From NCBI GenBank assembly GCA_902500785.1, contig CABVRW010000016.1, forward strand, positions 1 to 64,000: 64,000 nt of DNA, in the 5' to 3' direction. Both the position numbers and the translations under genes were made by a program. Every line of letters begins with the position of its first letter. Positions within the stretch are counted from its first letter, which is position 1. This document shows positions 19,555-34,237 of the stretch, one piece after another. Below the pieces are notes generated by a model. It was given only the letters and a program-made list of their open reading frames with translations, was not told where the DNA came from and did not search any database. Source of the DNA: an uncultured Nitrospira sp. GTDB lineage: Bacteria > Nitrospirota > Nitrospiria > Nitrospirales > Nitrospiraceae.

Positions 19555-19626
19555 CCCTGGGTCTGCCGCGCGATCCTCTCTCCATCCGCTCATCCTCGAT
19601 TGGAACCTCAGGGGGCGTTTCTTCCC

Positions 19627-21426
19627 ATGGACATAGCGAGTAGGGTGGGAAAGATTCAGGTTCTTCCAAGCGATGTCATCGGTCGCATTGCGGCGGGAGA
19701 GGTGGTGGAACGCCCGGCGGCGGTGGTGAAAGAGCTGGTCGAAAATAGCCTGGACGCCGGCAGTCGCACGATTACCGTCGAGATCAAAGACGGGGGACTT
19801 GGGTTGATTCGCGTCACCGATGACGGAGAAGGGATGTCCCGCGGCGATGCCTCGTTGGCTTTTGAGCGGCACGCTACGAGTAAATTGCACACCGACCAGC
19901 AGCTGGGGGCCATTCGGACGATGGGCTTCCGCGGGGAGGCGTTGCCGAGCATCGCCGCCGTGTCGAAAGTGCGGCTCATGACACTGTCTCGCCACGATCA
20001 GGTGGGAACTCAGCTTTGGCTCACGGCGGGAACCATCACGCGGGTGGAGGATGCGGCGGCGATTCCCGGGACATCCATCGAGGTCTCGGAGCTGTTTTAC
20101 AATACGCCGGCCCGCAGGAAGTTTCTCAAGTCGACCACGACGGAGTTCTCCCATATCAGCCATGTCGTGCAGCAGGCTGCGTTAGCCTCGCCGCAGGTGC
20201 ATGTGCGCTTGCATCATAATGGATATGAGGTCTTTGCCCTCCCCGCCGTTTCCTCTCCGCGCGACCGTGTGCTGCAAGTCTATCGCGCGGCATTCGGCGA
20301 TCGCGCGTTGCCCGTCGATATCGATCAGAATGGCCTGTCTCTAAAGGGGTTCATCATTGATCCGGTGCGGGCGCGCACCGGGCGTACGCCGCAGGAGTTA
20401 TTCGTCAATCGCCGGCCCGTTAAAAACAGCACCGTGCAACATGCCGTCATCGATGGCTACAGTTCCTTTCTTGCGAAGGGCCATGTTCCGCTTTTTGTGC
20501 TGTTTCTTGACGTCGAGCCGCAGCGGGTGGACGTCAACGTCCATCCGACCAAACGAGAAGTCCGGTTTGCCGATACCGAACAGGTGCATCAGTTGGTCCG
20601 TTCCGCCGTGCGGCAGACGCTCGGCCGTGCGCAGCTTGAATCGTCGATGGCAGGGACCGCCCATGCTCACCTGAGCGGCGAGGGCTCATCCATCGCGTCA
20701 TCGCCCGTTGAGTCGATAGGCATCGAATCGGGAGCGGAGCCGTATCGATCAGTCGGACGCATGCACGCCTCTGCTGCGCCCAATCCAACGGGTGCGCGGC
20801 AAACCTCTTTTGTCGGGGAGGGGAGCACGTCCTACGCGTCGAGTGAGGCTCTGGACATTCTGCCGCTCGGCCAAATGAACCGCACGTTTTTGATTGCGCA
20901 CGTGGGCGATGAGCTACAGGTGATCGATCAACATACGGCGCATGAGCGGGTATTGTTTGAGCGTCTCTTGCGAGCCTGGCACGACCGGAGTTTGCCGGCT
21001 CAACCGCTCCTGTTGCCGGAACCATTGGAGTTGCCGGTTCAACAAGCCCTCAGCCTCCATCGTCATCTGGAGGAATTGGAGCGGCTCGGGTTACTCATCG
21101 AACCATTCGGGCCGTCCACCTTTTTGATCCGCAGTCTGCCGGTCATGTTGGGGCATCCGGACCTGGCGGCGCTGGTTCAAGATCTGATTGAAGATCTTGA
21201 GCAGTGGGATTCGATCTCCTCGCTCGAAACGAAGGTCCGGCCTATCCTTGCGTCGCTGGCTTGCCATGGGGCCGTTCGAGCGGGCAGGACGATGGCGCTT
21301 CCCGAGATCAAGCAATTGGTGCAGGATTGGGTTGCGGAGGGACTGATCATGACCTGTCCGCACGGTCGTCGCGTGGCGTTTCGTCTATCCGGCGATGAAC
21401 TGGCTCGTTTGTTCGACCGCGCATAG
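19627..21426 (+). CDS. mutL: DNA mismatch repair protein MutL
   Basis: A 599-residue protein. The GHKL ATPase domain is at 1-330, with VVERPAAVVKELVENSLDAG, DDGEGM and GFRGEAL. A variable linker spans about 340-410. The C-terminal dimerisation domain carries the endonuclease motif DQHTAHERVLFE (consensus DQHA-x2-E-x4-E), plus ACHGAVRAG and CPHGR. The motif predicts a nicking MutL, as in bacteria lacking MutH. ATG at 19627 is chosen; the TTG at 19600 adds nine residues upstream. It is followed 17 bp later by miaA. Confidence 0.96.
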   Translation: MDIASRVGKIQVLPSDVIGRIAAGEVVERPAAVVKELVENSLDAGSRTITVEIKDGGLGLIRVTDDGEGMSRGDASLAFERHATSKLHTDQQLGAIRTMGFRGEALPSIAAVSKVRLMTLSRHDQVGTQLWLTAGTITRVEDAAAIPGTSIEVSELFYNTPARRKFLKSTTTEFSHISHVVQQAALASPQVHVRLHHNGYEVFALPAVSSPRDRVLQVYRAAFGDRALPVDIDQNGLSLKGFIIDPVRARTGRTPQELFVNRRPVKNSTVQHAVIDGYSSFLAKGHVPLFVLFLDVEPQRVDVNVHPTKREVRFADTEQVHQLVRSAVRQTLGRAQLESSMAGTAHAHLSGEGSSIASSPVESIGIESGAEPYRSVGRMHASAAPNPTGARQTSFVGEGSTSYASSEALDILPLGQMNRTFLIAHVGDELQVIDQHTAHERVLFERLLRAWHDRSLPAQPLLLPEPLELPVQQALSLHRHLEELERLGLLIEPFGPSTFLIRSLPVMLGHPDLAALVQDLIEDLEQWDSISSLETKVRPILASLACHGAVRAGRTMALPEIKQLVQDWVAEGLIMTCPHGRRVAFRLSGDELARLFDRA

Positions 21427-21443
21427 GAAGGGGGAGTGCGGCC

Positions 21444-22475
21444 ATGGTGCGGCTGTCGGAATCGCAGGCATCGTCGCGGCCGCTGGTGGTGCTGGTCGGA
21501 CCAACGGCGGTCGGAAAGAGCGAGATCGGACTTCGCCTGGCGCGCGCGCTGGACACGGACCTGTTGGCGGCAGACTCGCGCCAGGTCTATCGCGGGATGG
21601 ATATTGCGACCGACAAGCCGACGCCGGAACAGCGACAAGGCGTGCCGCATCATCTCATCGATCTGGTCGATCCCGACGAGTCGTTTAATGCCGGTCAGTA
21701 TCGTCACCTGGCGCTGCAGGAAATCGAACGGCTGTATGGCGAAGGACGGGTGCCGTTGATCGTTGGTGGCACGGGACTGTACGTTCGGACCTTGATTCAT
21801 GGTTTGTGTGACGCCCCGCGGGCAGATCAGGCCTATCGTGCGTTGTTGTTGCAGGAGGCCCGCGCGCAGGGGGGCTATTTTTTGCACCATGAATTGACGC
21901 GTGTCGATCCTGAACTGGCCGACCGGCTCCATCCTCATGACGAAGTCAAAATTGTGCGAGCGCTCGAAGTGCACCATCTGTCTGGGCGACGCCTGTCGGA
22001 TATGCAGCGGCAGCATCGTTTCGCCGAGCAATCGTTTTCGGTGCTCATGATCGGACTGAATCGGGATCGCGCACAGCTTTACCGCCGCATCGACGACCGA
22101 GTGGAAACAATGTTTGCACGAGGTGTCGTTGAGGAAACCGAACGGCTCCTGGCGAACGGGTATGGGCGAGAGTTGGGTGCGATGAAGGGACTGGGGTATC
22201 AGCAGGTCGCGGGATATCTGGCGGGCGACTACGACCGGGCTGAAGCCCTTCGCCTGCTGAAGCGTGATACTAGGCATTTTGCTAAACGGCAGCTGACATG
22301 GTTTCGGAAGGAGCCAGGCCTGCGCTGGTGTGCGCTCAGTGAACACGAGAGTTCGGAAGATATTGCCGGGCGGTTACTGAAGATGATTCGTTCGTTTATG
22401 CGGGCCACCGCGCATGGACGGCCGGCGGATAGTTCGCGTGCGCCCCTCACCATGGAAACGGAATCGACTGCATGA
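21444..22475 (+). CDS. miaA: tRNA dimethylallyltransferase MiaA
   Basis: A 343-residue enzyme that adds a dimethylallyl group to A37 of tRNAs reading UNN codons. The P-loop GPTAVGKS lies at about residues 19-26. DSRQVYRGMDIATDKPT and GGTGLYVRTLIHGL are diagnostic. The tail past residue 310 is extended and low in conservation. Its TGA overlaps the mtnP ATG by 4 bp, so the genes are translationally coupled. The mutL-miaA order is common in bacteria. Confidence 0.96.
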   Translation: MVRLSESQASSRPLVVLVGPTAVGKSEIGLRLARALDTDLLAADSRQVYRGMDIATDKPTPEQRQGVPHHLIDLVDPDESFNAGQYRHLALQEIERLYGEGRVPLIVGGTGLYVRTLIHGLCDAPRADQAYRALLLQEARAQGGYFLHHELTRVDPELADRLHPHDEVKIVRALEVHHLSGRRLSDMQRQHRFAEQSFSVLMIGLNRDRAQLYRRIDDRVETMFARGVVEETERLLANGYGRELGAMKGLGYQQVAGYLAGDYDRAEALRLLKRDTRHFAKRQLTWFRKEPGLRWCALSEHESSEDIAGRLLKMIRSFMRATAHGRPADSSRAPLTMETESTA

Positions 22476-23371
22476 AAAACACTACAACGGCCGATCAGGC
22501 CGCAATCGGTATTCTCGGCGGCAGCGGGTTGTACGACATTGACGGGTTAGAGCGGGTCCGGGAGGTGCGCGTCCGCACCCCGTTCGGGACTCCATCAGAT
22601 GCCGTTTTCATCGGTTGGCTGGGTGGTATCCGGGTTGCGTTTCTTTCTCGACACGGGCGAGGGCACCGAATCAATCCCAGCAGCATTAACTATCGCGCCA
22701 ATCTCTACGCGTTGAAATCATTGGGGGTCACACAAGTGATTTCCGTCAGCGCCGTCGGTAGCATGAAGGAATCCATCCGGCCCGGAGATGTGGTCTTGCC
22801 GGATCAGTTCATCGATCTGACGAAGCGTCGGGTGTCGACCTTTTTTGACGAGGGCATCGTGGCGCATGTCGGGTTCGGAGAGCCGGTCTGCTCGTCGGTG
22901 GCGGAAGTTTTGGAGCAAGCGGGGCGATCCGTCGGAGCGAGACTTCACCGTGGTGGGACGTATGTGTGTATGGAAGGGCCTCAGTTTTCGACCAAGGCTG
23001 AGTCACGATTGTATCGCCAGTGGGGGGTCGATGTGATCGGCATGACCAACATGCCGGAAGCCAAGCTCGCCCGCGAGGCCGAGCTTTGTTACGCGACGGT
23101 CGCGTTGGCGACGGACTACGACTGCTGGCATGACACTGAAGAAGCCGTGACCGTCGAGGCCATTTTGGCCACGCTGCACAAGAACGTGGCTCTCGCCAAA
23201 CAGTTGTTGAAGGCGGCGGTGCCCAAGCTGGCGCCAGGTCGGTCCTGTGCCTGCCATCAGGCGCTTCGAAACGCCATCGTGACCGCGCCGGATCGCATTT
23301 CTACCACGACGAAGAAACGGCTGAGATTATTGATTGCTCCCTATATGCAAACGCGGAAAGGAAGACGGTGA
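22472..23371 (+). CDS. mtnP: S-methyl-5'-thioadenosine phosphorylase
   Basis: A 299-residue phosphorylase that splits methylthioadenosine to adenine and methylthioribose-1-phosphate in methionine salvage. The N-terminal IGILGGSGLY phosphate-binding loop, the RHGRGH block, the YVCMEGPQFSTKAES motif and GMTNMPEAKLAREAELCYA are all present and typical of the MTAP branch of the PNP family. Its ATG overlaps the miaA stop. No mtnA, mtnB or mtnC is in the window, so the rest of the pathway must be elsewhere or absent. Confidence 0.94.
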   Translation: MKNTTTADQAAIGILGGSGLYDIDGLERVREVRVRTPFGTPSDAVFIGWLGGIRVAFLSRHGRGHRINPSSINYRANLYALKSLGVTQVISVSAVGSMKESIRPGDVVLPDQFIDLTKRRVSTFFDEGIVAHVGFGEPVCSSVAEVLEQAGRSVGARLHRGGTYVCMEGPQFSTKAESRLYRQWGVDVIGMTNMPEAKLAREAELCYATVALATDYDCWHDTEEAVTVEAILATLHKNVALAKQLLKAAVPKLAPGRSCACHQALRNAIVTAPDRISTTTKKRLRLLIAPYMQTRKGRR

Positions 23372-23374
23372 GAC

Positions 23375-24292
23375 ATGGGTAAATTACTGGTCGTGGGATC
23401 GGTGGCGTTGGATACCGTGAAAACGCCGTTCGGCGAGGTGAGCGAGGTGCTCGGAGGATCGGCCACCTACTTTTCGACGGCGGCGAGTTATTTCACGTCG
23501 GTCGATCTCATTGCGGTCGTCGGGGAGGATTTCCCGGACCAACATATGGCGTTCCTAAAGAGCCGGAAGATCGATTTGGCAGGGTTGGAGCGACGCCCCG
23601 GTGCAACGTTCCGCTGGAAGGGGGCCTATTCTCACCAATTGAACGAAGCGCAGACGCTCGATACCCGACTGAACGTGTTCGAGACCTTTCGCCCGAAGAT
23701 TCCCGCTCAGTACAGTTCTCCGGATGTGCTCTTTCTGGGAAATATCGACCCAAATTTGCAGCTGGATGTCTTGCAGCAGGTGAAGCGGCCGGCTTTGGTC
23801 GCCTGTGACACGATGAACTTCTGGATCAACGGCAAGCGCGATGCGCTCTGGAATGTGCTGCAACACATCGACATTCTCATTATCAACGACGGCGAAGCGC
23901 GTGCCTTGGGGGAGGACACGAACCTGGTCAAAGTCGCGGCGAAAATCCTTGCGCGAGGGCCCAAACACCTGATCGTCAAGCGTGGGGAATATGGCGTGCT
24001 GATGTTTAACGACAAGCAAGTGTTCGGGGCGCCGGCTTTTCCGCTGGACGACGTTAGAGATCCCACCGGTGCGGGCGATACCTTCGCCGGAGGATTTCTC
24101 GGGTATCTGGCCGCGACGGGAAACCGCTCTCCCGAGGCGATGCGCCAAGCCATCATCTTCGGCAGCGTCATGGCCTCGTTTACAGTGGAAGCCTTTAGCC
24201 TTGACCGATTGAGGATCCTAGATTACAAAGAGATTGAGGCCCGCTTCAAAGAGTTCAAGCGGCTCACTCATTTCGAGGACATCGGGGCATGA
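23375..24292 (+). CDS. PfkB/ribokinase-family carbohydrate kinase
   Basis: A 305-residue sugar or nucleoside kinase. The PfkB signature 2 is visible as DPTGAGDTFAGGF (about 229-241), with the catalytic Asp in GAGD. The N-terminal VVGSVALDTVKTPFG and the GGSATYFSTAAS block match the substrate lid region. It begins 3 bp after mtnP, which suggests a role near purine or pentose salvage, such as phosphorylating a ribose derivative. The exact substrate cannot be read from sequence. Confidence 0.88.
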   Translation: MGKLLVVGSVALDTVKTPFGEVSEVLGGSATYFSTAASYFTSVDLIAVVGEDFPDQHMAFLKSRKIDLAGLERRPGATFRWKGAYSHQLNEAQTLDTRLNVFETFRPKIPAQYSSPDVLFLGNIDPNLQLDVLQQVKRPALVACDTMNFWINGKRDALWNVLQHIDILIINDGEARALGEDTNLVKVAAKILARGPKHLIVKRGEYGVLMFNDKQVFGAPAFPLDDVRDPTGAGDTFAGGFLGYLAATGNRSPEAMRQAIIFGSVMASFTVEAFSLDRLRILDYKEIEARFKEFKRLTHFEDIGA

Positions 24293-24990
24293 TGATCAGT
24301 TGCCAAGAGCAGAGCCGGACAGGGCACAGGACTCGCTCCGGTAACGGATTGCGCTGGCTGGTGGTGGTGCTGGGTCTGTTCGTGCTGGGCGGCTGCGCCA
24401 ATGAAGAGAATTTGCGCAAGTCGAAAGGGTTTTACCAAGAGGGAATCGCGCGGCTGAGTTCCGATCAACAGCAGGCCTATGTGTCGTTTCAAAAAGCCGT
24501 GAAACTGAATCCTGACAATAAGGAAGCGCACTACGGATTAGGGCATATCTATTCCTCGCAGGGACGATTCAAGCTGGCCGAAGAATCCTTCCGTGAGGCG
24601 ATTCGCATTGATGCGGACTACGCTGAGGCGAACACCTATCTCGGGCAAGTACTCGCCAGTCAGGATCGTTGGAAAGAAGCCATTGCCGTGTATCGTCAGG
24701 CCCTCAGCAATCCGCTGTATTCGACACCGGATCTGGCACGGTTTCACTTGGGGAAAGCGTTGATGCACGAAGGCGACTTGCAAGGGGCGATGGAGGTGTT
24801 GGAAGACGCGACGACCGTCACGCCGCCGAATGTCCCTCCCGCCATGCTTCAGTTGGAGTTGGCGCGCGTCTATCACAGGCTCGGATTCGATGTGCGGGCC
24901 CGTGAGGCGCTCTCGAAGGTCACGACGCTAGACAAGGGCGGAGAACAGGCCTCCGCGGCGCAGGAATTGCTCAGTCAGCTCAAACCATAG
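24289..24990 (+). CDS. PilF/PilW-like TPR lipoprotein
   Basis: A 233-residue protein. A positively charged N-terminus and hydrophobic helix end in the lipobox LGGC (Cys36). About five TPR motifs follow (AYVSFQKAVKLNPDNKEAHYGLGHIY and repeats), with the PilF/PilW-like NPLYSTPDLARFHLGKAL block. PilF helps PilQ secretin assembly in type IV pili. Location just upstream of a RodZ-like gene matches the pilF-rodZ order known in proteobacteria. No pilus genes are adjacent, so the pilus role is inference. Its ATG overlaps the kinase stop. Confidence 0.7.
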   Translation: MMISCQEQSRTGHRTRSGNGLRWLVVVLGLFVLGGCANEENLRKSKGFYQEGIARLSSDQQQAYVSFQKAVKLNPDNKEAHYGLGHIYSSQGRFKLAEESFREAIRIDADYAEANTYLGQVLASQDRWKEAIAVYRQALSNPLYSTPDLARFHLGKALMHEGDLQGAMEVLEDATTVTPPNVPPAMLQLELARVYHRLGFDVRAREALSKVTTLDKGGEQASAAQELLSQLKP

Positions 24991-24999
24991 GCGGATATC

Positions 25000-25950
25000 A
25001 TGGAATCAGTGGGTGATTTTTTTCGGCAGGTGCGTGAAACCAAAGGCCTGACGGTCGATGAAGTGGCCTCGAAGACCCGCATTCGCACGGATTTCGTCAA
25101 AGCGCTCGAAGAGGGCAACTTCGCCAAGCTGCCCGACCAAGTGTTCGCGCGCGGGTTTGTGCGGTCCTACGCGCGGTCACTGGGGCTCGACGAAGAAGAT
25201 GCGATTCATCGGTTTGTTCAGTCCGCGGGTGCGTTTTATGAGAAACAGGGTGAACGGGAGCGGTTGAGGCAGCGGCAGGTCGAAGAGGAGCGGCGACGGA
25301 AGGCCAATCGCAAAGCGGTCGGTATTGCCATCGCCGTGGCGATCGCGACATTGGTGTTCTTGCTGAGCCGGGAACAGTCCTCGACATTAGTGCGACGAGC
25401 GGGTTCGGACGCACAGCCGTCGAGTAAGAGGAGTGCGCCGTTTGCCAAGGATACGCGCGAGGCGCCGCGTCAGGGACTCGAACTTCCGCCTCCCCTGGTG
25501 CCGTCAACCAAATCGGTTGAGCCCGCGGCTATCCCCTCGAAGCCTGTCCAGGAAAAGGTCGCCGCCCCGGTGCCGCCCCCTCCCGTCGCTCCGACCAAGG
25601 CGCCGGTGCAGTCTGAACAGGTTGCCACCCAGTCCTCTTCCTTCGCGGGGTCTGCGGGATCCGATGGCCCGCTGGCAGGGCTGTCGGTGGACGGGCCGGC
25701 CGGCCCCGAGGGCCCGCTCGTGCTCGACCTCGATGCCACTGAGCTGAGCTGGGTGGTGGTGCAGGTCGATTCAGGCAGTCCCCAGGAAGCGTTGCTCCGC
25801 CCTGGCGAAAAAGCGCAGTGGAAGGCACAGGATCAGTTTACGGTCACGCTCGGTAACGCCGGGGGAGTCCGCGCCGAATTGAACGGCAAGCCCCAGAAGG
25901 CGTTTGGTCCGAGTGGAAAGGTCGTGCGCGACGTCGTGCTCAAGCGCTGA
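25000..25950 (+). CDS. RodZ-like HTH membrane protein (DUF4115)
   Basis: A 316-residue protein. The N-terminal HTH_25 domain spans about 5-75 (GDFFRQVRETKGLTVDEVASKTRIRTDFV, QVFARGFVRSYAR). A charged segment is followed by one transmembrane helix (about 106-125, VGIAIAVAIATLVFLLS), a Pro/Ala-rich linker (150-220), and a C-terminal DUF4115 domain (about 240-315). This is the layout of RodZ, which anchors MreB and shapes the cell. No mreB is nearby. The Pro-rich linker contains repeated PLAG/GPEGP-type segments. Confidence 0.85.
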   Translation: MESVGDFFRQVRETKGLTVDEVASKTRIRTDFVKALEEGNFAKLPDQVFARGFVRSYARSLGLDEEDAIHRFVQSAGAFYEKQGERERLRQRQVEEERRRKANRKAVGIAIAVAIATLVFLLSREQSSTLVRRAGSDAQPSSKRSAPFAKDTREAPRQGLELPPPLVPSTKSVEPAAIPSKPVQEKVAAPVPPPPVAPTKAPVQSEQVATQSSSFAGSAGSDGPLAGLSVDGPAGPEGPLVLDLDATELSWVVVQVDSGSPQEALLRPGEKAQWKAQDQFTVTLGNAGGVRAELNGKPQKAFGPSGKVVRDVVLKR

Positions 25951-26202
25951 GTCGTTTGCGTAGACCGGTGTCCTAGTGCCCGCCCCCGGTTTGACTACTT
26001 GTGATCGCGCTCCTCATCCTCGCCATCCTGCCGAATGAGTGTCGTGACGCCAGCCCGGCGGTGCTGTATACGCACAGGAATGAGGCGGGTCGGGGAACGC
26101 TGGGGCGCAAAGGTGTCACGGATGAATAGTCGTACGTATCTGCCTCCTGCCTGATCAATTCAGAACTGCCTGAATTCTTGCCGTTTTCTTCGCTGCTACT
26201 CC

Positions 26203-26218
26203 TGGCACGCCCCTTGAG
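26203..26218 (+). promoter_or_regulatory. Sigma-54-like element with a degenerate -12 box
   Basis: The 16-mer TGGCACGCCCCTTGAG has a perfect -24 half (TGGCACG) and correct spacing. The -12 half is TTGA instead of TTGC. It lies 185 bp upstream of the cytochrome c ATG. The altered C of the -12 GC pair makes activity doubtful. Confidence 0.3.
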
Positions 26219-26271
26219 TTCCTATGCATTCAGGATAGGTGGAAAGGGTGCCGAACAGGCGAGTCGTTCCC

Positions 26272-26301
26272 TTGACAAGACAGAAAACGCGTTGCTATAG
26301 T
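26272..26301 (+). promoter_or_regulatory. Sigma-70-type promoter of the cytochrome c gene
   Basis: TTGACA (26272-26277) and TATAGT (26296-26301) are separated by 18 bp, near consensus at both boxes. The expected start is near 26308. Confidence 0.7.
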
Positions 26302-26402
26302 TCGCCTGCTTTATCGGCCTTGTAGTCTGTTTTCTTACTAAGTTGTCTCAGATAAGCGAGTCGTTGTTCACGCGGTGGGTTCAACACAAAGGAGGAGTTC
26401 TG

Positions 26403-26852
26403 ATGGGGTATCTGTCTAAGTTTTTTGGAGTGTGCGCGGCTGTCACATTGTTGTCTGTGACAGTGGTGGGTGCAGAAGAAAAGGATCCGACCAAGGCTCG
26501 CGTCCCGGCGGATCAAATGGCGGAAGCTAAGGCGATGAAGAATCCGGTTGCGTCGTCCCCGGAAAGCATTGCCAAGGGCAAGGCTCTCTATGAGGGCAAG
26601 GGCACCTGCTTTAATTGCCATGGGAAAGAAGGAAAAGGCGACGGACCTGCCGGCGCGATCCTGAATCCGAGCCCACGCAATTTCACCAACTGCAAGTTCC
26701 ACAAGAAGCGGAAAGATGGTGAGCTGTTCTGGGTGATCAAGAACGGCAGCGCGGGCACCGGTATGGTGTCCCTGGTCCCTGCCGCGATCACCGAGGAAGA
26801 AGCTTGGACGATCATCAATTATGAGCGCAGCTTCTGCAAGGGTGGAGAATAG
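26403..26852 (+). CDS. Exported monohaem cytochrome c
   Basis: A 149-residue protein with a signal peptide cut near residue 24. A single CFNCH haem motif is at 69-73. A plausible axial Met is M121 in TGMVSLVP. The fold is a small class I cytochrome (about 100 residues) with extra Cys at 97 and 145. It should carry electrons in the periplasm. AAAGGAGG lies 8-15 bases before the ATG, and the gene has its own near-consensus promoter and a very strong terminator, all typical of an abundant protein. It is monocistronic. Confidence 0.92.
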   Translation: MGYLSKFFGVCAAVTLLSVTVVGAEEKDPTKARVPADQMAEAKAMKNPVASSPESIAKGKALYEGKGTCFNCHGKEGKGDGPAGAILNPSPRNFTNCKFHKKRKDGELFWVIKNGSAGTGMVSLVPAAITEEEAWTIINYERSFCKGGE

Positions 26853-26886
26853 TAGTCGCGACATTCAGCTCATCGGCTGAATTCTT

Positions 26887-26926
26887 GGGGGCGGCAAGGG
26901 TATCTTTGCCGCCCCCATTTTTTTGC
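26887..26926 (+). terminator. Rho-independent terminator of the cytochrome c gene
   Basis: An 11-bp perfect stem, GGGGGCGGCAA (26887-26897) with TTGCCGCCCCC (26906-26916), and an 8-nt loop are followed by A and seven T. It lies 35 bp after the stop. Confidence 0.93.
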
Positions 26927-27051
26927 TTTCGTGATCGGTGCAAGCTTGAGCTGAGGAGGGGGGCGAAGGTGATGAGTTTCTCTCCTCAGACGTTTCTGGA
27001 TGAGGCGTGATGTGATTCATTCCAGAGCGGTGGAGGGATTGGGTTGTTTGG

Positions 27052-28944
27052 TCAGGGTTGGCCGGTCGCAGGGATGGTCGATGGTTTCGTGAGCACCACG
27101 TCAAGGCTTTTATCCTGGGCGCGCAGCGCCGGTAGGACCTGCGGTTGTTGCTCCTGTTTGAAGTTGCTCTTGGCCGCCGTCGGCACCTTCCGATTCACGA
27201 AGGTCGTCACCTCGCCGATCGTCACTTCGCCGTTTCCATTGAGGTCGGCTTCACCACGCAGGCCCCGCAAGAGGTAATAGGTGAATAACCCGTGTCGTAA
27301 CGTGTCTGATTCCAGACTCTTTCCAAAACCCGTTGTCGCGATCACATGAAGGACTTTCCCTGTCGTTCCCGGCCATTTCGGTGTCGGTACCTTCGCCCGC
27401 CCGTCGACGCCACTCTTGAGAACGGTTCCGTCGAATATAAACAGCACGTGCTTCGCTTTCAATCTTCCCAGGGCCATCTCCAGATCTTTCAGCGGATACA
27501 GACGGGTGGTCGATGCTAAGGCACCATCGTAGGGGATGAGGAATGTTTCCCCGGCCGGTGAGACGGTGGCGTGCCCGGCAAAGTAAACCATTACGACTGA
27601 GTCCGGGGTAATTCTTGACGGCAGCCAATCGAGCAAGGCTTCCTCAATGTCCGGGCGCAACGCGCTCCAGTCCTGCAAGAGCCGAACGTTATTTCTGGGT
27701 AATCCGCCCAGCGATTGGAGGTAGGTGGCGACCATTTCGGCATCGAGGGCGGCATGCTTACGTGGGTGAATCTGCGGGTCTCGGTAGCTACTGAGGCCGA
27801 TCGAAATCAGGTAGTCCTCCGGTCGTTGAAATCCGGCTGTCACAGCAGGAGCCTGGTCTATGTCGTCGGTTCTGAGGCCGGTCGGCTGCACCGACGCGAG
27901 CAATGTTTGCGGCGAGGGAACCGGCTGCCCGGACCCGCTCACCAACGAGACGTGGAACTCCGCCTGCTGTGGGCGCAGGGATTGCGGCAGCGTGGCGATG
28001 AACTCCAAGGACTTGGAACCGCCTGCTTGGATGGCACCGGTCGATAATGTCGTAGCCGGGAATTGCGTGATTAAAGTCGGCGGGCCGGCCAGCTGAACGG
28101 AGATATCTTGCACGGTCTGGGAACTGGTGTTGACGACGTCTACTCGCACGCGGATGCGTTCACCGCCCTCGAGGATCAGATTGCTGTTTTCATCCAGAAG
28201 CGTGGCTTTGAAGGACAGGGCGTGAGCCGGCATCGGAGCAGGGACGGTCGTAGCCGGAAGCGAGGTCGTCTTCGAGGCTGCATCGGCAGCGGCGACAGAT
28301 GGTCCGGCCGGCGATACCGCAGCGGCAGGGGCTAAGAGCACTCGTGCTTCCTGCATAAACTGTGAGGCCAACATTGTAGACGTGTTTTGCACCAGGGGGT
28401 CTACCAGATAGTCGCATCGTTGCTGAGTCAGCTCGAGTTGCAGACGCTCTTTTCGCGTGGCTTGTAATGGACGTTCAGCCAGCAGCGTGCCTGAGGCATC
28501 GTAGAACTCGGCGAAGGCATCCAAGTTGAGTTCGGCCGGCGCGCGATCGTAGAGGCCATCGGATTGAATTTTCAATCGAGGGTCCAGCATACGTATCCGC
28601 ACGGTCACGTCCGGTTTGGCCTCGGCTGTATGACCGCCTGGAACGACCACGGCACGAAATGTTTGGTGGGCGGCTTGCACCAGCATGTCTTCAAGGGTTG
28701 AGCCGATGGAGAGCGGTCGGATCTTGCTGCAATTATCGATGTATTCGGTCTTGGCTTGCGACAGCGACGGGTCGATGTCCATTCGAACGATGAGGGGGAC
28801 CGGAGGGCCGAGGTCCGGCAAGGCCTGCTGGGAAAAGCGTGACTTAATGGTTTCGCAGCCTGCGGAGCCCAGCACATGAATGAAAAGCATTCCGAGAATG
28901 AGTGCGCGGTTCGTCTTCAAGCCAAGGCCTCCTCTACGTCGCAT
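27052..28944 (-). CDS. Caspase-fold lipoprotein lacking a catalytic Cys
   Basis: A 630-residue lipoprotein (lipobox GSAGC, Cys30). An N-terminal region (about 45-205) resembles exported lipoprotein domains. A beta-sandwich, CARDB-like domain spans about 245-350. A C14/caspase-like domain spans about 376-590. The His block is YFAGHATVS (H458). The strand that normally ends in D-x-C reads LFIFDGTVLKSG (505-512), with no Cys, and the whole caspase domain has no Cys. An EF-hand-like loop DLNGNGEVTIGE covers 567-578. It is likely a pseudo-protease with a binding or scaffolding role at the envelope. Confidence 0.8.
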   Translation of the reverse strand: MRRRGGLGLKTNRALILGMLFIHVLGSAGCETIKSRFSQQALPDLGPPVPLIVRMDIDPSLSQAKTEYIDNCSKIRPLSIGSTLEDMLVQAAHQTFRAVVVPGGHTAEAKPDVTVRIRMLDPRLKIQSDGLYDRAPAELNLDAFAEFYDASGTLLAERPLQATRKERLQLELTQQRCDYLVDPLVQNTSTMLASQFMQEARVLLAPAAAVSPAGPSVAAADAASKTTSLPATTVPAPMPAHALSFKATLLDENSNLILEGGERIRVRVDVVNTSSQTVQDISVQLAGPPTLITQFPATTLSTGAIQAGGSKSLEFIATLPQSLRPQQAEFHVSLVSGSGQPVPSPQTLLASVQPTGLRTDDIDQAPAVTAGFQRPEDYLISIGLSSYRDPQIHPRKHAALDAEMVATYLQSLGGLPRNNVRLLQDWSALRPDIEEALLDWLPSRITPDSVVMVYFAGHATVSPAGETFLIPYDGALASTTRLYPLKDLEMALGRLKAKHVLFIFDGTVLKSGVDGRAKVPTPKWPGTTGKVLHVIATTGFGKSLESDTLRHGLFTYYLLRGLRGEADLNGNGEVTIGEVTTFVNRKVPTAAKSNFKQEQQPQVLPALRAQDKSLDVVLTKPSTIPATGQP

Positions 28945-29055
28945 TTCGAAGAGGGAACGGTACAGGAACGGAGGAGCCTTTGCAACCGAACGCCCGGTCC
29001 GGGTTGCGGCCCTGATGGGGCTCGTTTATTCTAACCGCCGCGCACCTATCGGATT

Positions 29056-30816
29056 GTGAATGAGAAGGGCTGCGGAGTCATCGTGTTGGTGCTGGGACTT
29101 TCCAATATGAGAGATGCGGCGGCGGCGCTCGTCTCCGACGGTCGCATCGTGGCGGCGGCCGAGGAGGAACGATTCGTTCGCCAGAAACATGTAACGGCAC
29201 TGCCGGTGCAAGCGATTCGTTATTGCCTGCGCGAGGCCGGAGTCGCTCTTTGGGACGTTGAGGCGATTGCCGTACCCTGGAAATATTGGCAGGTTGGGCG
29301 GCGCGCCTGGCTGGCGCTGACGTCGATGATGCGGTCTCCTCAACTCTTTCGGGTCAAGGGGACCCGGTCGCTGGAGCGTATGAGCCGGGAGTGGATGGAA
29401 TTGGGCCGACTGCGTGAGGCACTGACACGTCGAGTGGGCGTGGGTGCAACCAAGCCGGTGTTTCTCGATCACCATCTCTGCCACGCGGCCAGTTCGTTTT
29501 TGGTGTCGCCCTTCGAGCGGTCGGCTATTCTCGTGGTGGATGGCGCGTCTGAGGCCGATACCACTCTGATGGCTGTCGGCGAAGGCAATCAGATCACCGT
29601 GCTCGATCGCACCCCGCTGCCCCATTCGCTGGGGCAGTTCTATGGGGCGATGACCGCGTTCCTCGGGTTTCGCCCGGACCAGGATGAATACATTGTGATG
29701 GGCCTCGCGTCTTCCGGGGAGCCGACGTTTGCTTCGGCCCTGCGCCGGGACATTGTGCGGTTGCTTCCTCGGGGCCGATTCGAATTGAATGTTCGTCTCC
29801 TCGACTTTCATCTCGCCCGGGCCGGCTTCTTTGTGGAGGAGTTGGTGCGCCTGTTCGGTCCTCAGCGGCGTTCGTGCGAGGAGATCACGCAACGGCATCG
29901 CGACCTTGCCGCCAGCGCTCAAGTCGTTCTGGAAGAGACGTTGTTGCATCTCGGTCGCCATGTGCGCACGCTCACACAGGCGGAGTCGCTCTGTCTGGCG
30001 GGCGGGGTCGCCTATAACTGCGTGGCCAATGGCCGTTTGCGTGCCGAACTCGGGTTCAAGGCTGTCTATGTGCCGCCGGCCGCCGGCGATTCCGGAGCCG
30101 CGCTCGGGGCGGCTCTGTGGTGGACGGCAAGACGTGGAGAGGCCACGACAAGACCCCTGTTGCCCGATGCGTATTGGGGGCCGCAATTCGACGAGGCCAC
30201 TTGTCGAATCGCATTATCGCAAGCGGGTCTCGTCGCCGAGTCCCTGACCGATGCGCAGTTGTACGAACGCGTCGCAGCAGAACTCGCCCGCGGCCGCCTG
30301 GTGTTCTGGTATCAAGGTCGGATGGAATGGGGACCGCGCGCGCTCGGGAATCGCAGTCTGCTGGCGGATCCCCGACGGGAAGACATGCGGGAGTTGATCA
30401 ACAGCAAAGTGAAATGTCGGGAAGCGTTTCGTCCCTTCGCCCCTTCGGTCCTCGATGATCGTGCGCAAGAATTTTTCGATCTGCCGGCCCCGTCACCATT
30501 CATGCAGTTCACCGTGCGGGTGAAGGCCTCTGCCAAAGGAATCCTCCCGGCCGTGACGCATGTCGATGGAACGGCACGGGTCCAGACCGTCACGCGTGAG
30601 GCCAACCCACGATTCTATGATCTCCTGGCCACCTTCGGGCGCCTCACCGGAGTCCCGGTGCTGCTCAATACCTCGTTCAATGTGCAGGAGCCGATCGTCT
30701 GTAGTCCCGACGAGGCCGTGCGTTGTTTTCAGCGGACCCAGGTCGAGTGGTTGGTCCTCGGCAATTTACTGGTGGGACGATCTTCTTCACCGTCTATTCC
30801 GAATCATGCGTGCTGA
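29056..30816 (+). CDS. NodU/CmcH-family carbamoyltransferase
   Basis: Up to 586 residues. The N-terminal actin-like Kae1/TobZ-type domain (1-360) shows GLSNMRDAAAALVSDGRI, EEERFVRQKH, DHHLCHAASSF, VVDGASEADTT and LCLAGGVAYNCVANG. The C-terminal domain has YQGRMEWGPRALGNRSLLADPR and VLLNTSFNVQEPIV. Family members transfer carbamoyl from carbamoyl phosphate to sugar or antibiotic hydroxyls. The GTG start is unproven; GTG codons at 29083 and 29089 are alternatives. It overlaps the following membrane-protein gene by 11 bp, so the pair may modify a surface glycan together. Confidence 0.88.
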   Translation: MNEKGCGVIVLVLGLSNMRDAAAALVSDGRIVAAAEEERFVRQKHVTALPVQAIRYCLREAGVALWDVEAIAVPWKYWQVGRRAWLALTSMMRSPQLFRVKGTRSLERMSREWMELGRLREALTRRVGVGATKPVFLDHHLCHAASSFLVSPFERSAILVVDGASEADTTLMAVGEGNQITVLDRTPLPHSLGQFYGAMTAFLGFRPDQDEYIVMGLASSGEPTFASALRRDIVRLLPRGRFELNVRLLDFHLARAGFFVEELVRLFGPQRRSCEEITQRHRDLAASAQVVLEETLLHLGRHVRTLTQAESLCLAGGVAYNCVANGRLRAELGFKAVYVPPAAGDSGAALGAALWWTARRGEATTRPLLPDAYWGPQFDEATCRIALSQAGLVAESLTDAQLYERVAAELARGRLVFWYQGRMEWGPRALGNRSLLADPRREDMRELINSKVKCREAFRPFAPSVLDDRAQEFFDLPAPSPFMQFTVRVKASAKGILPAVTHVDGTARVQTVTREANPRFYDLLATFGRLTGVPVLLNTSFNVQEPIVCSPDEAVRCFQRTQVEWLVLGNLLVGRSSSPSIPNHAC

Positions 30817-32347
30817 GGCGGCCCATGTCTCAAGTTCTCTTTCTTTGCCTCTTGTCGGATTTTTGCTCGAACTCCTGCTGGCCGGATTTGTCCTGAATCT
30901 CACCCTTCAACCGCTCGTGGAACCGGATCTGGGATGGCATCTTCGTGCCGGGCTGGATGTAATCGCCGAGGGATGGCGGTTGCCGGACACCGATCCCTAT
31001 TCCCATACGATGCCGGAGTGGCATTGGGTCGAGCATGCCTGGTTGACCGATGGTGTGTTGGGCGTGATCTATCGCGGGATGGGACCGTTCGGTGGGGTGG
31101 GGCTGATTCTGTTCTTCGGCGGCGTGACGGCGCTGGCCTGGTGGGTGGCCGCATTGCCGGCCGCGGTGCATCGAATCTATCGATGGGTCGCCATGGTAGC
31201 GAGTCTCTGGGTGGCGTTGCCCTTCCTTGGCGCCCGCACGCAACTGGTCAGTCTTCTCGGTATCGCGATCCTGCTATGGGGGTGGCGCCGCATTCAGCAA
31301 GGGCAGCGGATATGGATCTACGGACTTCCTCCGCTGTTCCTGCTGTGGGCGAACCTGCACGGCGGATTCACGGCGGGGCTCTTTCTGTCCGCCCTCCTGC
31401 TCTCCCTGTCTGGCCTGGTGAAGGTGTGGGCCGGGCGGCCGGCGGTCGAGGCGTTGCTCGATGAGCCGGTGCTGAGCTGGGAGGATCTTCGTCGCTGGGC
31501 GATTGCGTTGGGACTTGCGACGGCAGTGACTTGTCTGAATCCTTACGGATGGCGCCTCTATCTTGAGATCTACGAGTCCCTGACCGATCGATTTATGGTT
31601 GAGACCCTGCGGGAATGGCAGCCGGTATCTTTCCGTGGGTGGGCCGGTCAGGCCTATGGGTTCTACTTGGCAGGCGTCGCCTGTCTAGTGGGCGGATGGT
31701 ATCGCCGGGTGGAGCCGGTTCGATGGGCCATGCTGGCGGTCATGTTGGGGTTGTCGTTATTGCATTGGCGAAACGTCTCCCTGTTCTTGATCGTGAGCCT
31801 CTCGCTGGTGGCGGAGTTGCTGGCGCTGGCGGCGTCGTCCTGTACCCGGTGGATGCCGACGTTGAGAACCCATGCGGCCCTGACGCTGGGTGGGTTGACG
31901 ATTGGGACCGCCGGTGCCCTCTCTGCCTTGGGGACGGAACATCTGGAGCATGTCTGGTTATCGGGCCACGCGCCGGACGTGTATTTTGAACAGACGGAAT
32001 ATCCCATCGAAGCGGTGCGGTGGATTAGGAGTCATCGGGACGAGGTCGGAACCAGGCTCTACAATGATTACGGGTACGGCGGGTTTCTATTGTGGCAGCT
32101 CCCCGGCGAGAGAATTTTTATCGATGGCCGGATGCCGGCCTGGCACCTCAAGGATCGGCGCATCTTTCAGGATTATGCGGATCTGAATCGCGAGGATTCG
32201 CCCCGGTTGGCGGTGTTGGATCGGTATGCGGTCGATTGGGCGCTGATCCAACGAGGCAGCGCACTTGCGTTGGCATTGGCAGCGCATCCCGCATGGCGGA
32301 CAGTCTATGCCGATGCCAAGGTGGTGATTGTGCGTCGGCAGGGGTGA
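30806..32347 (+). CDS. Large polytopic membrane protein, GT-C-like
   Basis: A 513-residue protein with about 11 hydrophobic helices. The first periplasmic loop carries EPDLGWHLRAGLDVIAEG and DTDPYSHTMP, an acidic block reminiscent of GT-C glycosyltransferases and widespread in uncharacterised bacterial membrane proteins. The C-terminal soluble domain (about 390-513) contains YNDYGYGGFLLWQLPGERIF and IDGR. Start ATG at 30806 is chosen since it sits 11 bp inside the carbamoyltransferase gene; longer in-frame ORF to 30560 overlaps that gene fully. Likely uses lipid-linked sugars, but this is inference. Confidence 0.75.
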   Translation: MRAEAAHVSSSLSLPLVGFLLELLLAGFVLNLTLQPLVEPDLGWHLRAGLDVIAEGWRLPDTDPYSHTMPEWHWVEHAWLTDGVLGVIYRGMGPFGGVGLILFFGGVTALAWWVAALPAAVHRIYRWVAMVASLWVALPFLGARTQLVSLLGIAILLWGWRRIQQGQRIWIYGLPPLFLLWANLHGGFTAGLFLSALLLSLSGLVKVWAGRPAVEALLDEPVLSWEDLRRWAIALGLATAVTCLNPYGWRLYLEIYESLTDRFMVETLREWQPVSFRGWAGQAYGFYLAGVACLVGGWYRRVEPVRWAMLAVMLGLSLLHWRNVSLFLIVSLSLVAELLALAASSCTRWMPTLRTHAALTLGGLTIGTAGALSALGTEHLEHVWLSGHAPDVYFEQTEYPIEAVRWIRSHRDEVGTRLYNDYGYGGFLLWQLPGERIFIDGRMPAWHLKDRRIFQDYADLNREDSPRLAVLDRYAVDWALIQRGSALALALAAHPAWRTVYADAKVVIVRRQG

Positions 32348-32454
32348 TCGGCCGGATTTGCATTCGTCGGCAGGCTGTGGGCTCTTCTGGTGCAGGCAGG
32401 GCGCATGAGCTGATCGCAGCGTGCTGCGCCATACCCGAGTGTGTCCGCAACTTG

Positions 32455-33270
32455 TTAGAAGTGAGTCGGTTCGATGGAGGCTAAGGCCGGCTCGGCGCTG
32501 TTCAGTGCGGGTCGACAACGAGGCATGTACAGCCCTTGGGTGTCACGCTTTCGGATGGCCAAGAGTTCACGCAACATGACCAGTCCGTCGCGCCATGGCC
32601 GGACCTTCGATCCTGGCTGGTCGATCCAATTGACCGGGAGTTCTGCAATCCGATAGCCGCGCTGCCGGGCGATATATAGCAATTCAAGATCGAATGCGTA
32701 GCCGTCGACGCAGGCGACCGAGAACAGGTCCTGAGCGACAGGTCGACGAAAGAGCTTGAACCCGCATTGGGTGTCGGCAATGTGTCGAAGGCCAAGGTGC
32801 TGGACGAGGCTGTTGAAGACGGTTCCTAGTACGCTTCGATACCACCGTGCCCGGACGGTGAAGATCGGATTGTGAGAAGCCAGCGCCCGTGACCCGATGG
32901 CGAGATCCGCTCCGGCCGTGAGTGCCGATTCCAGGCGCGCCAGTTCTTCGATCGCCGTGGCCCCATCCGCGTCCACAAACAATTGAAAGGTGCCTCGTGC
33001 GGCCTGCATGCCGCGGCGGACAGCCGCTCCCTTGCCTGCATTGCAGGTCAATTGAATGAGTCGCACCTGAGGGGAGTGATGCGCCACCAGCTCGACAGCC
33101 TGGGCGGTCCGGTCTTGACTGCCGTCATCCACGACGAGGACTTCATAGGACCGGCCACTCTGATCCAGGTAGGCGACAACACGCTGCAAAAAAAGCGGAA
33201 GGCGACGGGCCTCGTTATAGGCTGGAATGACCACGGTAAGGTAGGGTGCCTGAGTCGAGCACGGTGTCAC
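32455..33270 (-). CDS. GT2 glycosyltransferase, dolichyl/polyprenyl-phosphate glucosyltransferase type
   Basis: A 271-residue family 2 glycosyltransferase. Visible motifs are LTVVIPAYNEARRLP, the UDP-binding VVDDGSQDRT, the DxD motif in FVDADGAT, AIGSRA, DTQCGFKLFRR and GYRIAELPVNW. These are typical of DPG-synthase/ALG5-like enzymes that load a sugar onto a polyprenyl phosphate. There is no C-terminal membrane helix pair, unlike GtrB-type proteins. The GTG at 33270 is chosen because the fold begins at once after it; an ORF up to 33417 exists. It converges with the membrane protein at 30806-32347, which could use its product. Confidence 0.85.
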   Translation of the reverse strand: MTPCSTQAPYLTVVIPAYNEARRLPLFLQRVVAYLDQSGRSYEVLVVDDGSQDRTAQAVELVAHHSPQVRLIQLTCNAGKGAAVRRGMQAARGTFQLFVDADGATAIEELARLESALTAGADLAIGSRALASHNPIFTVRARWYRSVLGTVFNSLVQHLGLRHIADTQCGFKLFRRPVAQDLFSVACVDGYAFDLELLYIARQRGYRIAELPVNWIDQPGSKVRPWRDGLVMLRELLAIRKRDTQGLYMPRCRPALNSAEPALASIEPTHF

Positions 33271-33463
33271 GATTGGACAGCCTCGTGTCGGAGAGTGACG
33301 CGACCGATCCGCCTGGTGATGACGAATGGTGGACCACGGTATCTGAGCGACGATCGAAAAGCAAGCAGTGAGTGACGGGTCTTGACAGACCCATCGAGCG
33401 GGGGCGATCGTGATCACACATGCCCTCGGTCTCCGTGGCGTACGTCTGTCCGGGAGGGTTGCG

Positions 33464-34237
33464 ATGGGGCGGAACCCGAGTTGGTTGGTGTCCCTGGCGG
33501 GTCTTCTGTGGTTGGTTGGGTGCGCGGTCCCGACTCCGCCGAGTCGGCTGGCTCAGTACGTGGACGCTGTTGCGGCAGTCGAAGCAGTGAGCCCGGGGCT
33601 TCCGTCGCAACGCCCGGTTCGAGCCGCCCTGGTCGTCTTAGCCGATCGGTCGGATCCCGAGGCGGCACCGAGCTTGCCTGAAGAAGCTCAGAGACGGCTT
33701 GTTGAGCACCTTGGTACGCAGATCAACCACGGATTCCCCGTCCTGATTGAACGGGTGGTGAATCTGGGGGAGGTCCCGCCTGGACAAACCCCTCCAGACT
33801 GGACCAAGGTTGCCAGACAACAGGGTGTGGACCATGTGTTGGTCGTGGTCCTGTCGAGTACGGAACAGGAATATCCGGTCTCATTGTTTCTTGGCTGGAC
33901 GACCCATCGGCAGCCGGGGTTCCGGCGCGATAACTGGTCCTTGGCTGAAGCGGCCCTGGTTGATGGGCGAACGGGTCGGCCGCTTCTCCGCGCGGAGGGG
34001 CGAGCCATGGCGACCTTGGACAGCCCCACGGCGCCCGGGATTTCGCAGTGGTATCCGGTCGTGTATCTCCGGCCGCAGGATCCGGAGCGACGTGTCTGGC
34101 CGCCGAGTTATGAAGGCGCCCCTGTGACGCTCCGTGTGGTGTCGATGGAGCAGGCTGCCAAGCGATTGGCCGGGAATCTGCAGCGAGCCTGGGTCGAACA
34201 GCGGAATCTCGACCTGGCGTCGATGCCGAAGCCCTGA
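33464..34237 (+). CDS. Lipoprotein of unknown function
   Basis: A 257-residue lipoprotein (signal ending LVGC, Cys20). The mature part has an alpha/beta domain with the blocks VRAALVVLADRSDPE, GVDHVLVVVLSSTEQEYP and LAEAALVDGRTGRPLLRAEGRA. These resemble lipoproteins that report a small-molecule or envelope state, but no family was recognised. ATG at 33464 has GGGAGGG upstream, so the ORF start at 33410 is rejected. It is divergent from the glycosyltransferase gene and separated by 193 bp. Confidence 0.65.
   Translation: MGRNPSWLVSLAGLLWLVGCAVPTPPSRLAQYVDAVAAVEAVSPGLPSQRPVRAALVVLADRSDPEAAPSLPEEAQRRLVEHLGTQINHGFPVLIERVVNLGEVPPGQTPPDWTKVARQQGVDHVLVVVLSSTEQEYPVSLFLGWTTHRQPGFRRDNWSLAEAALVDGRTGRPLLRAEGRAMATLDSPTAPGISQWYPVVYLRPQDPERRVWPPSYEGAPVTLRVVSMEQAAKRLAGNLQRAWVEQRNLDLASMPKP

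Follow-up and report, generated by a model that had tools for sequence, protein, structure and literature searches.

A putative lipid-anchored pseudo-orthocaspase with a CARDB-like domain in Nitrospira

The window analysed here, a stretch of 64,000 nucleotides from an uncultured Nitrospira sp., carries on its minus strand a gene with an open frame of 630 codons (27052-28944). The original prediction was right about this frame, but the start that it assumed probably lies too far upstream. The sequence AGGAGG (28928..28933, minus strand), a probable ribosome-binding site, sits 7 bases 5' of a TTG at 28920, and the true start is probably this TTG rather than the ATG at 28944. A GGAGG-type site followed by TTG was present in 16/16 Nitrospira genus loci inspected, and an in-frame ATG equivalent to that at 28944 was absent from all 16; the comparison covered 16 of the 18 named genus loci, with L082 (which has a stop) and the truncated L089 omitted. 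In addition, the genus orthologues L011, L015 and L020 each carry an in-frame stop that separates the ATG place from the TTG place. Based on the conserved site, the TTG and these stops, the coding sequence probably extends over 27052..28920 and encodes 622 amino acids. The longer frame begins 8 codons before the TTG, and residue numbers follow this longer frame throughout; feature coordinates refer to the minus strand unless stated otherwise.

Relatives of the encoded protein are grouped here as orthologues (A), paralogues at a cytochrome locus (B) and homologues from sister families within the order (F2 and F3), and our alignment comprised 71 rows after 20 of 91 had been removed as duplicates, five of the 71 being distant. 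The orthologue was found in 29/29 genus genomes searched, where the G016 copy consists of two contig-end pieces and the G009 copy has a stop inside the linker region.

The protein begins with a predicted lipoprotein signal peptide (residues 9-29, 28858..28920), recognised by a lipobox-like pattern: the residues LGSAGC fit a PROSITE-type lipobox rule, and the same rule fits 53/66 related rows, several of the 13 rows missing it being shortened or ending with their contig. Cys30 (28855..28857), the expected lipidated cysteine at +1 of the mature protein, is conserved in 45/45 ungapped orthologue rows, with 6/51 gapped at this column. The position that follows the lipid Cys holds E, D or other residues and does not settle the membrane of residence.

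Residues 42-206 (28327..28821) form an N-terminal domain which, in the AlphaFold2 model and by fold search, has an ABC_trans_aux/CsgG/LptE/PelC-type lipoprotein fold. Folded separately, this domain reached a mean pLDDT of 91.6 and matched the DUF330 protein 2iqi with a VIA Z of 12.6 (rmsd 3.0 over 143 residues), followed by CsgG (Z 11.1), LptE and PelC (about 10), TraT (8.7) and PqiC (8.1-8.3). The predicted fold is therefore shared with the ABC_trans_aux (DUF330)/PqiC, CsgG, LptE, PelC and TraT proteins, whereas a significant sequence match to ABC_trans_aux-type lipoproteins is missing: Pfam ABC_trans_aux matches weakly (best E 0.12, 2/20 relatives), and the N-terminal profile, searched against PDB sequences, gave no match up to E 5. 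The only cysteines in the window protein are residues 30, 72 and 177, and the latter two are kept in every ungapped A, B and F2 row, so that a disulfide between Cys72 and Cys177 is possible. One alignment appeared to show a loss of C177 in F3, which we take to be a misalignment because 11/11 F3 proteins have a Cys pair, spaced 112-113.

The middle of the protein (residues 241-360, 27865..28224) is a putative CARDB-like beta-sandwich. This part of the original prediction holds through relatives only, in that Pfam CARDB (PF07705) matches 8/25 aligned relatives (best E 4e-4) but leaves the window protein itself unmatched. A profile of the CARDB-like part (A4) matches the dyad-bearing caspases L211, L212 and L215, and against PDB sequences the CARDB profile found a weak cupredoxin-like match (E 0.14). 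We set aside a match to a Mediator subunit (E 0.03) because it begins within the Ala/Pro-rich linker. The AlphaFold2 model of the whole protein (mean pLDDT 82.2, pTM 0.48) leaves the relative placing of the domains unsure. The protein is a predicted three-domain lipoprotein, PqiC/CsgG/LptE/PelC-type at its N-terminus, CARDB-like in the middle and caspase-like in its C-terminal part.

The caspase-fold domain (residues 372-622, 27079..27831) is supported by Pfam, Foldseek and VIA. Peptidase_C14 (PF00656) spans residues 382-604 with an E of 4.5e-10 and is the sole Pfam match of the window protein up to E 1. The predicted structure of the domain resembles metacaspase 4 (VIA Z 21.7, rmsd 3.3 over 221 residues), MALT1 (Z 21.1) and the bacterial protein GSU0716 (Z 20.8), and Foldseek also finds the fold. 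Structure prediction and fold comparison, with VIA Z values of about 21, thus bear out the caspase fold that had been proposed from the letters of the sequence.

The catalytic dyad of this fold has been replaced. The strand equivalent to the catalytic D-[SA]-C reads FDGTVLKSG, as had been noted before, with D505-G506-T507 (27424..27432, codons GAC-GGA-ACC) in the place of D-x-C and T507 in the Cys column; it is also true that residues 376-630 contain no Cys. A displaced Cys as nucleophile can be rejected since the domain is without any Cys. The alignment of homologues proposed as a check on the lost Cys gave the same answer across the clade, the column holding Cys in 0/74 Nitrospirota rows (51 A, 4 B, 8 F2 and 11 F3). 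Among the 51 A orthologues it is occupied by T (28), M (6), S (5), G (4), I (4), K (2), N (1) and A (1), in B by S (4/4) and in F2 by S (7/8) or A (1/8). The column of the catalytic His is held by His458 in the window (27571..27573, codon CAC), and the statement that H458 is kept is correct for the window sequence but not for the family: the A orthologues (n=51) have Q in 41 rows, H in 4, V in 4 and L in 2, and two of the four His-bearing rows are the window and its 96% twin. Elsewhere the column reads R in 4/4 B rows, N in 7 and S in 1 of the F2 rows (n=8), and H in 3 and Q in 8 of the F3 rows (n=11). Compared by codon with ten genus loci, the window shares its CAC with one of them, the 96% twin, and the nine others have CAG. 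By alignment and codon, a His at 458 is a feature of the window's own lineage. With a Cys column that is never Cys and a His that is mostly Gln, the family appears to be without a working dyad, and a p20-type domain with a replaced dyad, which defines a pseudo-orthocaspase, is what we find: H-T here and Q-T in most genus orthologues.

Outside the dyad, several positions are strongly kept. D401, D505 and H551 are conserved in 51/51 A rows, and by alignment D401 (27742..27744) and D505 match two Asp of the metacaspase basic-residue pocket as described by Klemencic et al. 2019 (PMC6426788). The D401 column holds D in 51/51 A, 4/4 B, 8/8 F2 and 0/3 F3 rows, and in 1/11 rows of a second F3 alignment; D505 is replaced by Glu in 1/4 B rows and by Asn in 1/11 F3 proteins. 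The motif HGLFTYY is missing from 11/11 F3 proteins. Given that F3 is without D401 and HGLFTYY and has in one protein exchanged D505 for Asn, binding in the pocket cannot be what these proteins do in general.

The caspase domain also contains an EF-hand-type loop, DLNGNGEVTIGE (residues 567-578, 27211..27246), which fits the EF-hand loop pattern. In the AlphaFold2 model the loop is flanked by predicted helices (553-565 and 576-595), and profile A2 matches EF-hand proteins at this place (E 2e-4). The loop residues D567, G572 and E578 are kept in 51/51 A, 4/4 B, 8/8 F2 and 10/11 F3 rows, one F3 protein being without the Gly, which amounts to 73/74 rows. The calcium-type loop of the original prediction does exist as a pattern, but we reject it as a distinguishing feature of the window protein because a pattern match finds the loop in 19/37 dyad-bearing Nitrospirota relatives as well (one unaligned protein was scored as lacking it). 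The distant loci L111 and L113-L116 all have the loop, yet they were retrieved with a pattern that holds the motif and hence are no control.

In the Nitrospiraceae the gene is part of a twelve-gene run (19600 to 34237 in the window), which was complete in 8/10 loci examined; the TPR gene is absent from one of the remaining loci and the right flank from the other. With families assigned by Pfam, the run includes miaA, an MTAP-like gene, pfkB, TPR, rodZ, cytochrome c, the pseudo-caspase, a carbamoyltransferase, a membrane protein and a glycosyltransferase, and it also takes in the lipoprotein-like open frame lp33410 (33410..34237, plus strand). In the sister family F3 an lp33410 homologue divergently adjoins the pseudo-caspase homologue in 10/12 contigs, the other two ending first. 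Gene order thus makes lp33410 the likely best candidate for a partner of the pseudo-caspase. We note that lp33410, which has no match in Pfam or NCBIfam, is conserved, and that its linkage with the pseudo-caspase is seen in two of the order's families. Shared ancestry of lp33410 and the N-terminal domain is unsupported (hhalign probability 0.2%).

A search across the phylum gave matches in 76/148 genomes. From its list we chose 20 regions, which yielded 37 matching dyad-bearing proteins, His and Cys both being present in 37/37 matching Nitrospirota proteins of these regions. A quick tree was built from 77 rows with 241 columns, the TPR caspase family described below being left out. In this tree all 35 pseudo rows group in a single clade (SH-aLRT 99), which lies within the dyad-bearing rows and has L211, L215, L212 and L213 as its closest neighbours. 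The tree requires five changes between His and not-His, the direction of which is not readable from it; it also warns of long branches and splits the five distant rows, and its deep order is unsure. These results suggest that the Cys was lost once for the window's clade, not for the phylum, in which the TPR family is a further Cys-less family. Like the window protein, the dyad-bearing caspases L211, L212 and L215 combine a CARDB-like with a caspase domain and, by eye, have a lipoprotein-like N-terminus; they differ in retaining GHG and DSCFSG and in N-terminal parts that the window's N-terminal profile does not match. A genome of the same family encodes L225, a dyad-bearing caspase that weakly matches the N-terminal domain (E 6e-5, in a small frame set). 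As a side observation, L212 (G182:C8:40100-60000) holds six dyad-bearing caspase frames with differing N-terminal parts in about 18 kb, and L211 holds four.

Searching the genome of the window with PF00656 revealed three places, namely the pseudo-caspase, a TPR protein on C42 (L034, G000:C42:20468-21148), in which the His is present and DAS replaces DSC, and a C11 protein with an intact GHG/DSCHSG and, by eye, no signal sequence. The B paralogue at C43 has neither dyad residue and no Pfam match; it was missed by PF00656, and three places are consequently a lower bound. By sequence, the window genome has three caspase homologues without the Cys: the pseudo-caspase, the B paralogue and the TPR protein. 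Detection with PF00656 varied further across the genus. A genome search at E 0.001 in 25 genus genomes detected the orthologue in just two, the window genome and that of the twin, G020, and in each of these it has the His. A direct protein scan at E 0.01 did better, matching 18/25 A2 members, five A2 members being dyad-bearing. Detection differs by method, which means that PF00656 counts are method-dependent. The TPR caspase family itself (L034, L151-L170) has, by eye, a signal-like N-terminus and C-terminal TPRs, and in the 21 loci examined its dyad columns hold His in 21/21 and, in the Cys place, Asn in 19 and Ser in 2. The B paralogue (L002, L072, L073) has UbiA as a neighbour, as Pfam shows for L072, and L073 also holds genes matching cytochrome bd subunit I, a c-type cytochrome and EB_dh.

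We consider it likely that the window protein is a pseudo-orthocaspase, predicted to be protease-dead and anchored in the envelope, which works by binding, as a scaffold or receptor, rather than by cutting. Its description as a lipid-anchored pseudo-protease is supported by the predicted fold, the Cys column that is never Cys and the lipobox-like signal, and the earlier suggestion of an envelope binding protein is plausible and strengthened by the outer-membrane-lipoprotein-type fold predicted for the N-terminal domain, although binding itself is putative. In such a protein the lipid on Cys30 would tether the chain to an envelope membrane, facing the periplasm, and the N-terminal domain, with its predicted lipoprotein-type fold, may assemble or dock it at the outer membrane, while the CARDB-like domain could act as a spacer or adhesion module. 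The caspase fold would then offer a docking surface, in which the acidic pocket, judged by D401 and D505, may accommodate a basic partner, either peptide or protein, and which Ca2+ bound to the EF-hand loop may stabilise. According to the tree, the clade would have lost its Cys once, from within dyad-bearing caspases, the nearest of which carry CARDB domains, and gene order points to the lipoprotein lp33410 as the likely partner. What counts against a dead scaffold is the His present in 4/51 A and 3/11 F3 rows.

We also considered that the protein functions in outer-membrane assembly through its N-terminal domain and CARDB, as a lipoprotein on which the caspase domain is left over and drifts. 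A homologue in G057 (L180:6306-7427), on one of the ten F3 contigs mentioned above, is a 374-codon frame with N-terminal and CARDB parts and without a caspase domain, still adjoining an lp33410 homologue, which indicates that the caspase domain is not needed in every species, and the F3 caspase domains occupy the longest inner branch of the pseudo-clade. Within the genus, however, constraint on the caspase domain is similar to that on the N-terminal domain (dN/dS 0.087-0.192 versus 0.039-0.258; Nei-Gojobori, 7 genus pairs), and the EF loop residues persist in nearly every row of the clade. These ratios show that the caspase domain is under purifying selection and that the gene is not decaying within the genus, and we regard the leftover explanation as rather unlikely.

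Alternatively, the protein could serve an active caspase as its decoy or its regulator. A precedent is c-FLIP, a metazoan pseudo-caspase and cytosolic adaptor with death-effector domains, which regulates caspase-8 as a decoy and, like the window protein, has a catalytically dead caspase fold that serves for binding. The retained caspase fold and pocket Asp would suit such a role, and the fold matches include chain B of the caspase-8:c-FLIPL complex entry, a chain that may be either protein. A comparable partner was, in contrast, not found for the window protein: the sole intact-dyad protein that PF00656 detects in the window genome, in a search that misses diverged homologues, is the C11 protein without a signal sequence by eye, and no dyad-bearing envelope caspase was seen there within this lower bound. 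A role like that of c-FLIP therefore seems improbable to us.

It is more doubtful still that the protein is an active peptidase with Thr507, or a Ser, as substitute nucleophile together with His458. Thr or Ser occupies the column in 28 and 5 of the 51 A rows and the window protein does have the His, yet Gln stands in the His column of 41/51 A rows, which leaves the Thr mostly without a His, and the Cys column itself is G, M, I, K, A or N in 18/51. Moreover, a 12-row alignment, judged by eye rather than on coordinates, showed no further Ser or Cys that is both invariant and close to the cleft. We thus reject a substitute nucleophile, as the column is unconserved and the His mostly Gln. That the Cys loss is a sequencing or assembly artefact, a doubt raised for 27410-27440, can be practically dismissed: the window genome is a 129-contig assembly, but the 96% twin, from another assembly, has identical residues, T507 recurs among the orthologues and Cys is absent in every row of the clade.

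Returning to a protein that binds rather than cuts, we tentatively propose, as an extension that we think doubtful, that the dead caspase fold is a calcium-loaded docking module in an outer-membrane lipoprotein complex with lp33410, kept throughout Nitrospira, and that the caspase fold is here mainly a non-catalytic part of the envelope. The window genome has three Cys-less caspase homologues with signal-like N-termini and one intact, apparently cytoplasmic caspase. The usual discussion of caspase homologues in bacteria treats them as cell-death proteases; if the docking module is real, the caspase fold in this nitrifier would be mainly non-catalytic and located in the envelope. A single loss of the nucleophile followed by purifying selection, in an important nitrite-oxidising genus, points to use of the fold beyond proteolysis, in the envelope, and the pseudo-clade and its dyad-bearing sisters within one phylum provide a clean set for testing non-cutting functions of the caspase fold.

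Finally, the window protein can be compared with known systems. Pseudo-orthocaspases make up 858 of 9,994 bacterial orthocaspases, most of them from Alphaproteobacteria and Cyanobacteria (Klemencic et al. 2019, PMC6426788), 57% intact dyads were reported for Nitrospirae in 2012 (PMC3501461), and deletion of a cyanobacterial pseudo-orthocaspase is reported to give higher oxidative-stress tolerance (PMC7889975). The main text of PMC6426788 has no word starting with Nitrospir, and among the matches listed in our literature search no paper addressed this architecture by its title or the start of its abstract. With the bacterial pseudo-orthocaspases described before (PMC6426788; SyOC of Synechocystis, PMC7889975) the window protein shares the p20-type fold, the substituted dyad and the pocket Asp. 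It differs in its dyad, since YS and YN are commonest in the cyanobacterial proteins whereas the window family is QT/HT and varied, and also in its lipid anchor, its lipoprotein-type N-terminal domain and CARDB. Only for the lipid-anchored architecture, if at all, can such proteins be called rarely described: pseudo-orthocaspases as such (PMC6426788) and weak dyad conservation in Nitrospirae (PMC3501461) were already known, and to these the window protein adds a variant with a lipid-anchored CARDB architecture.
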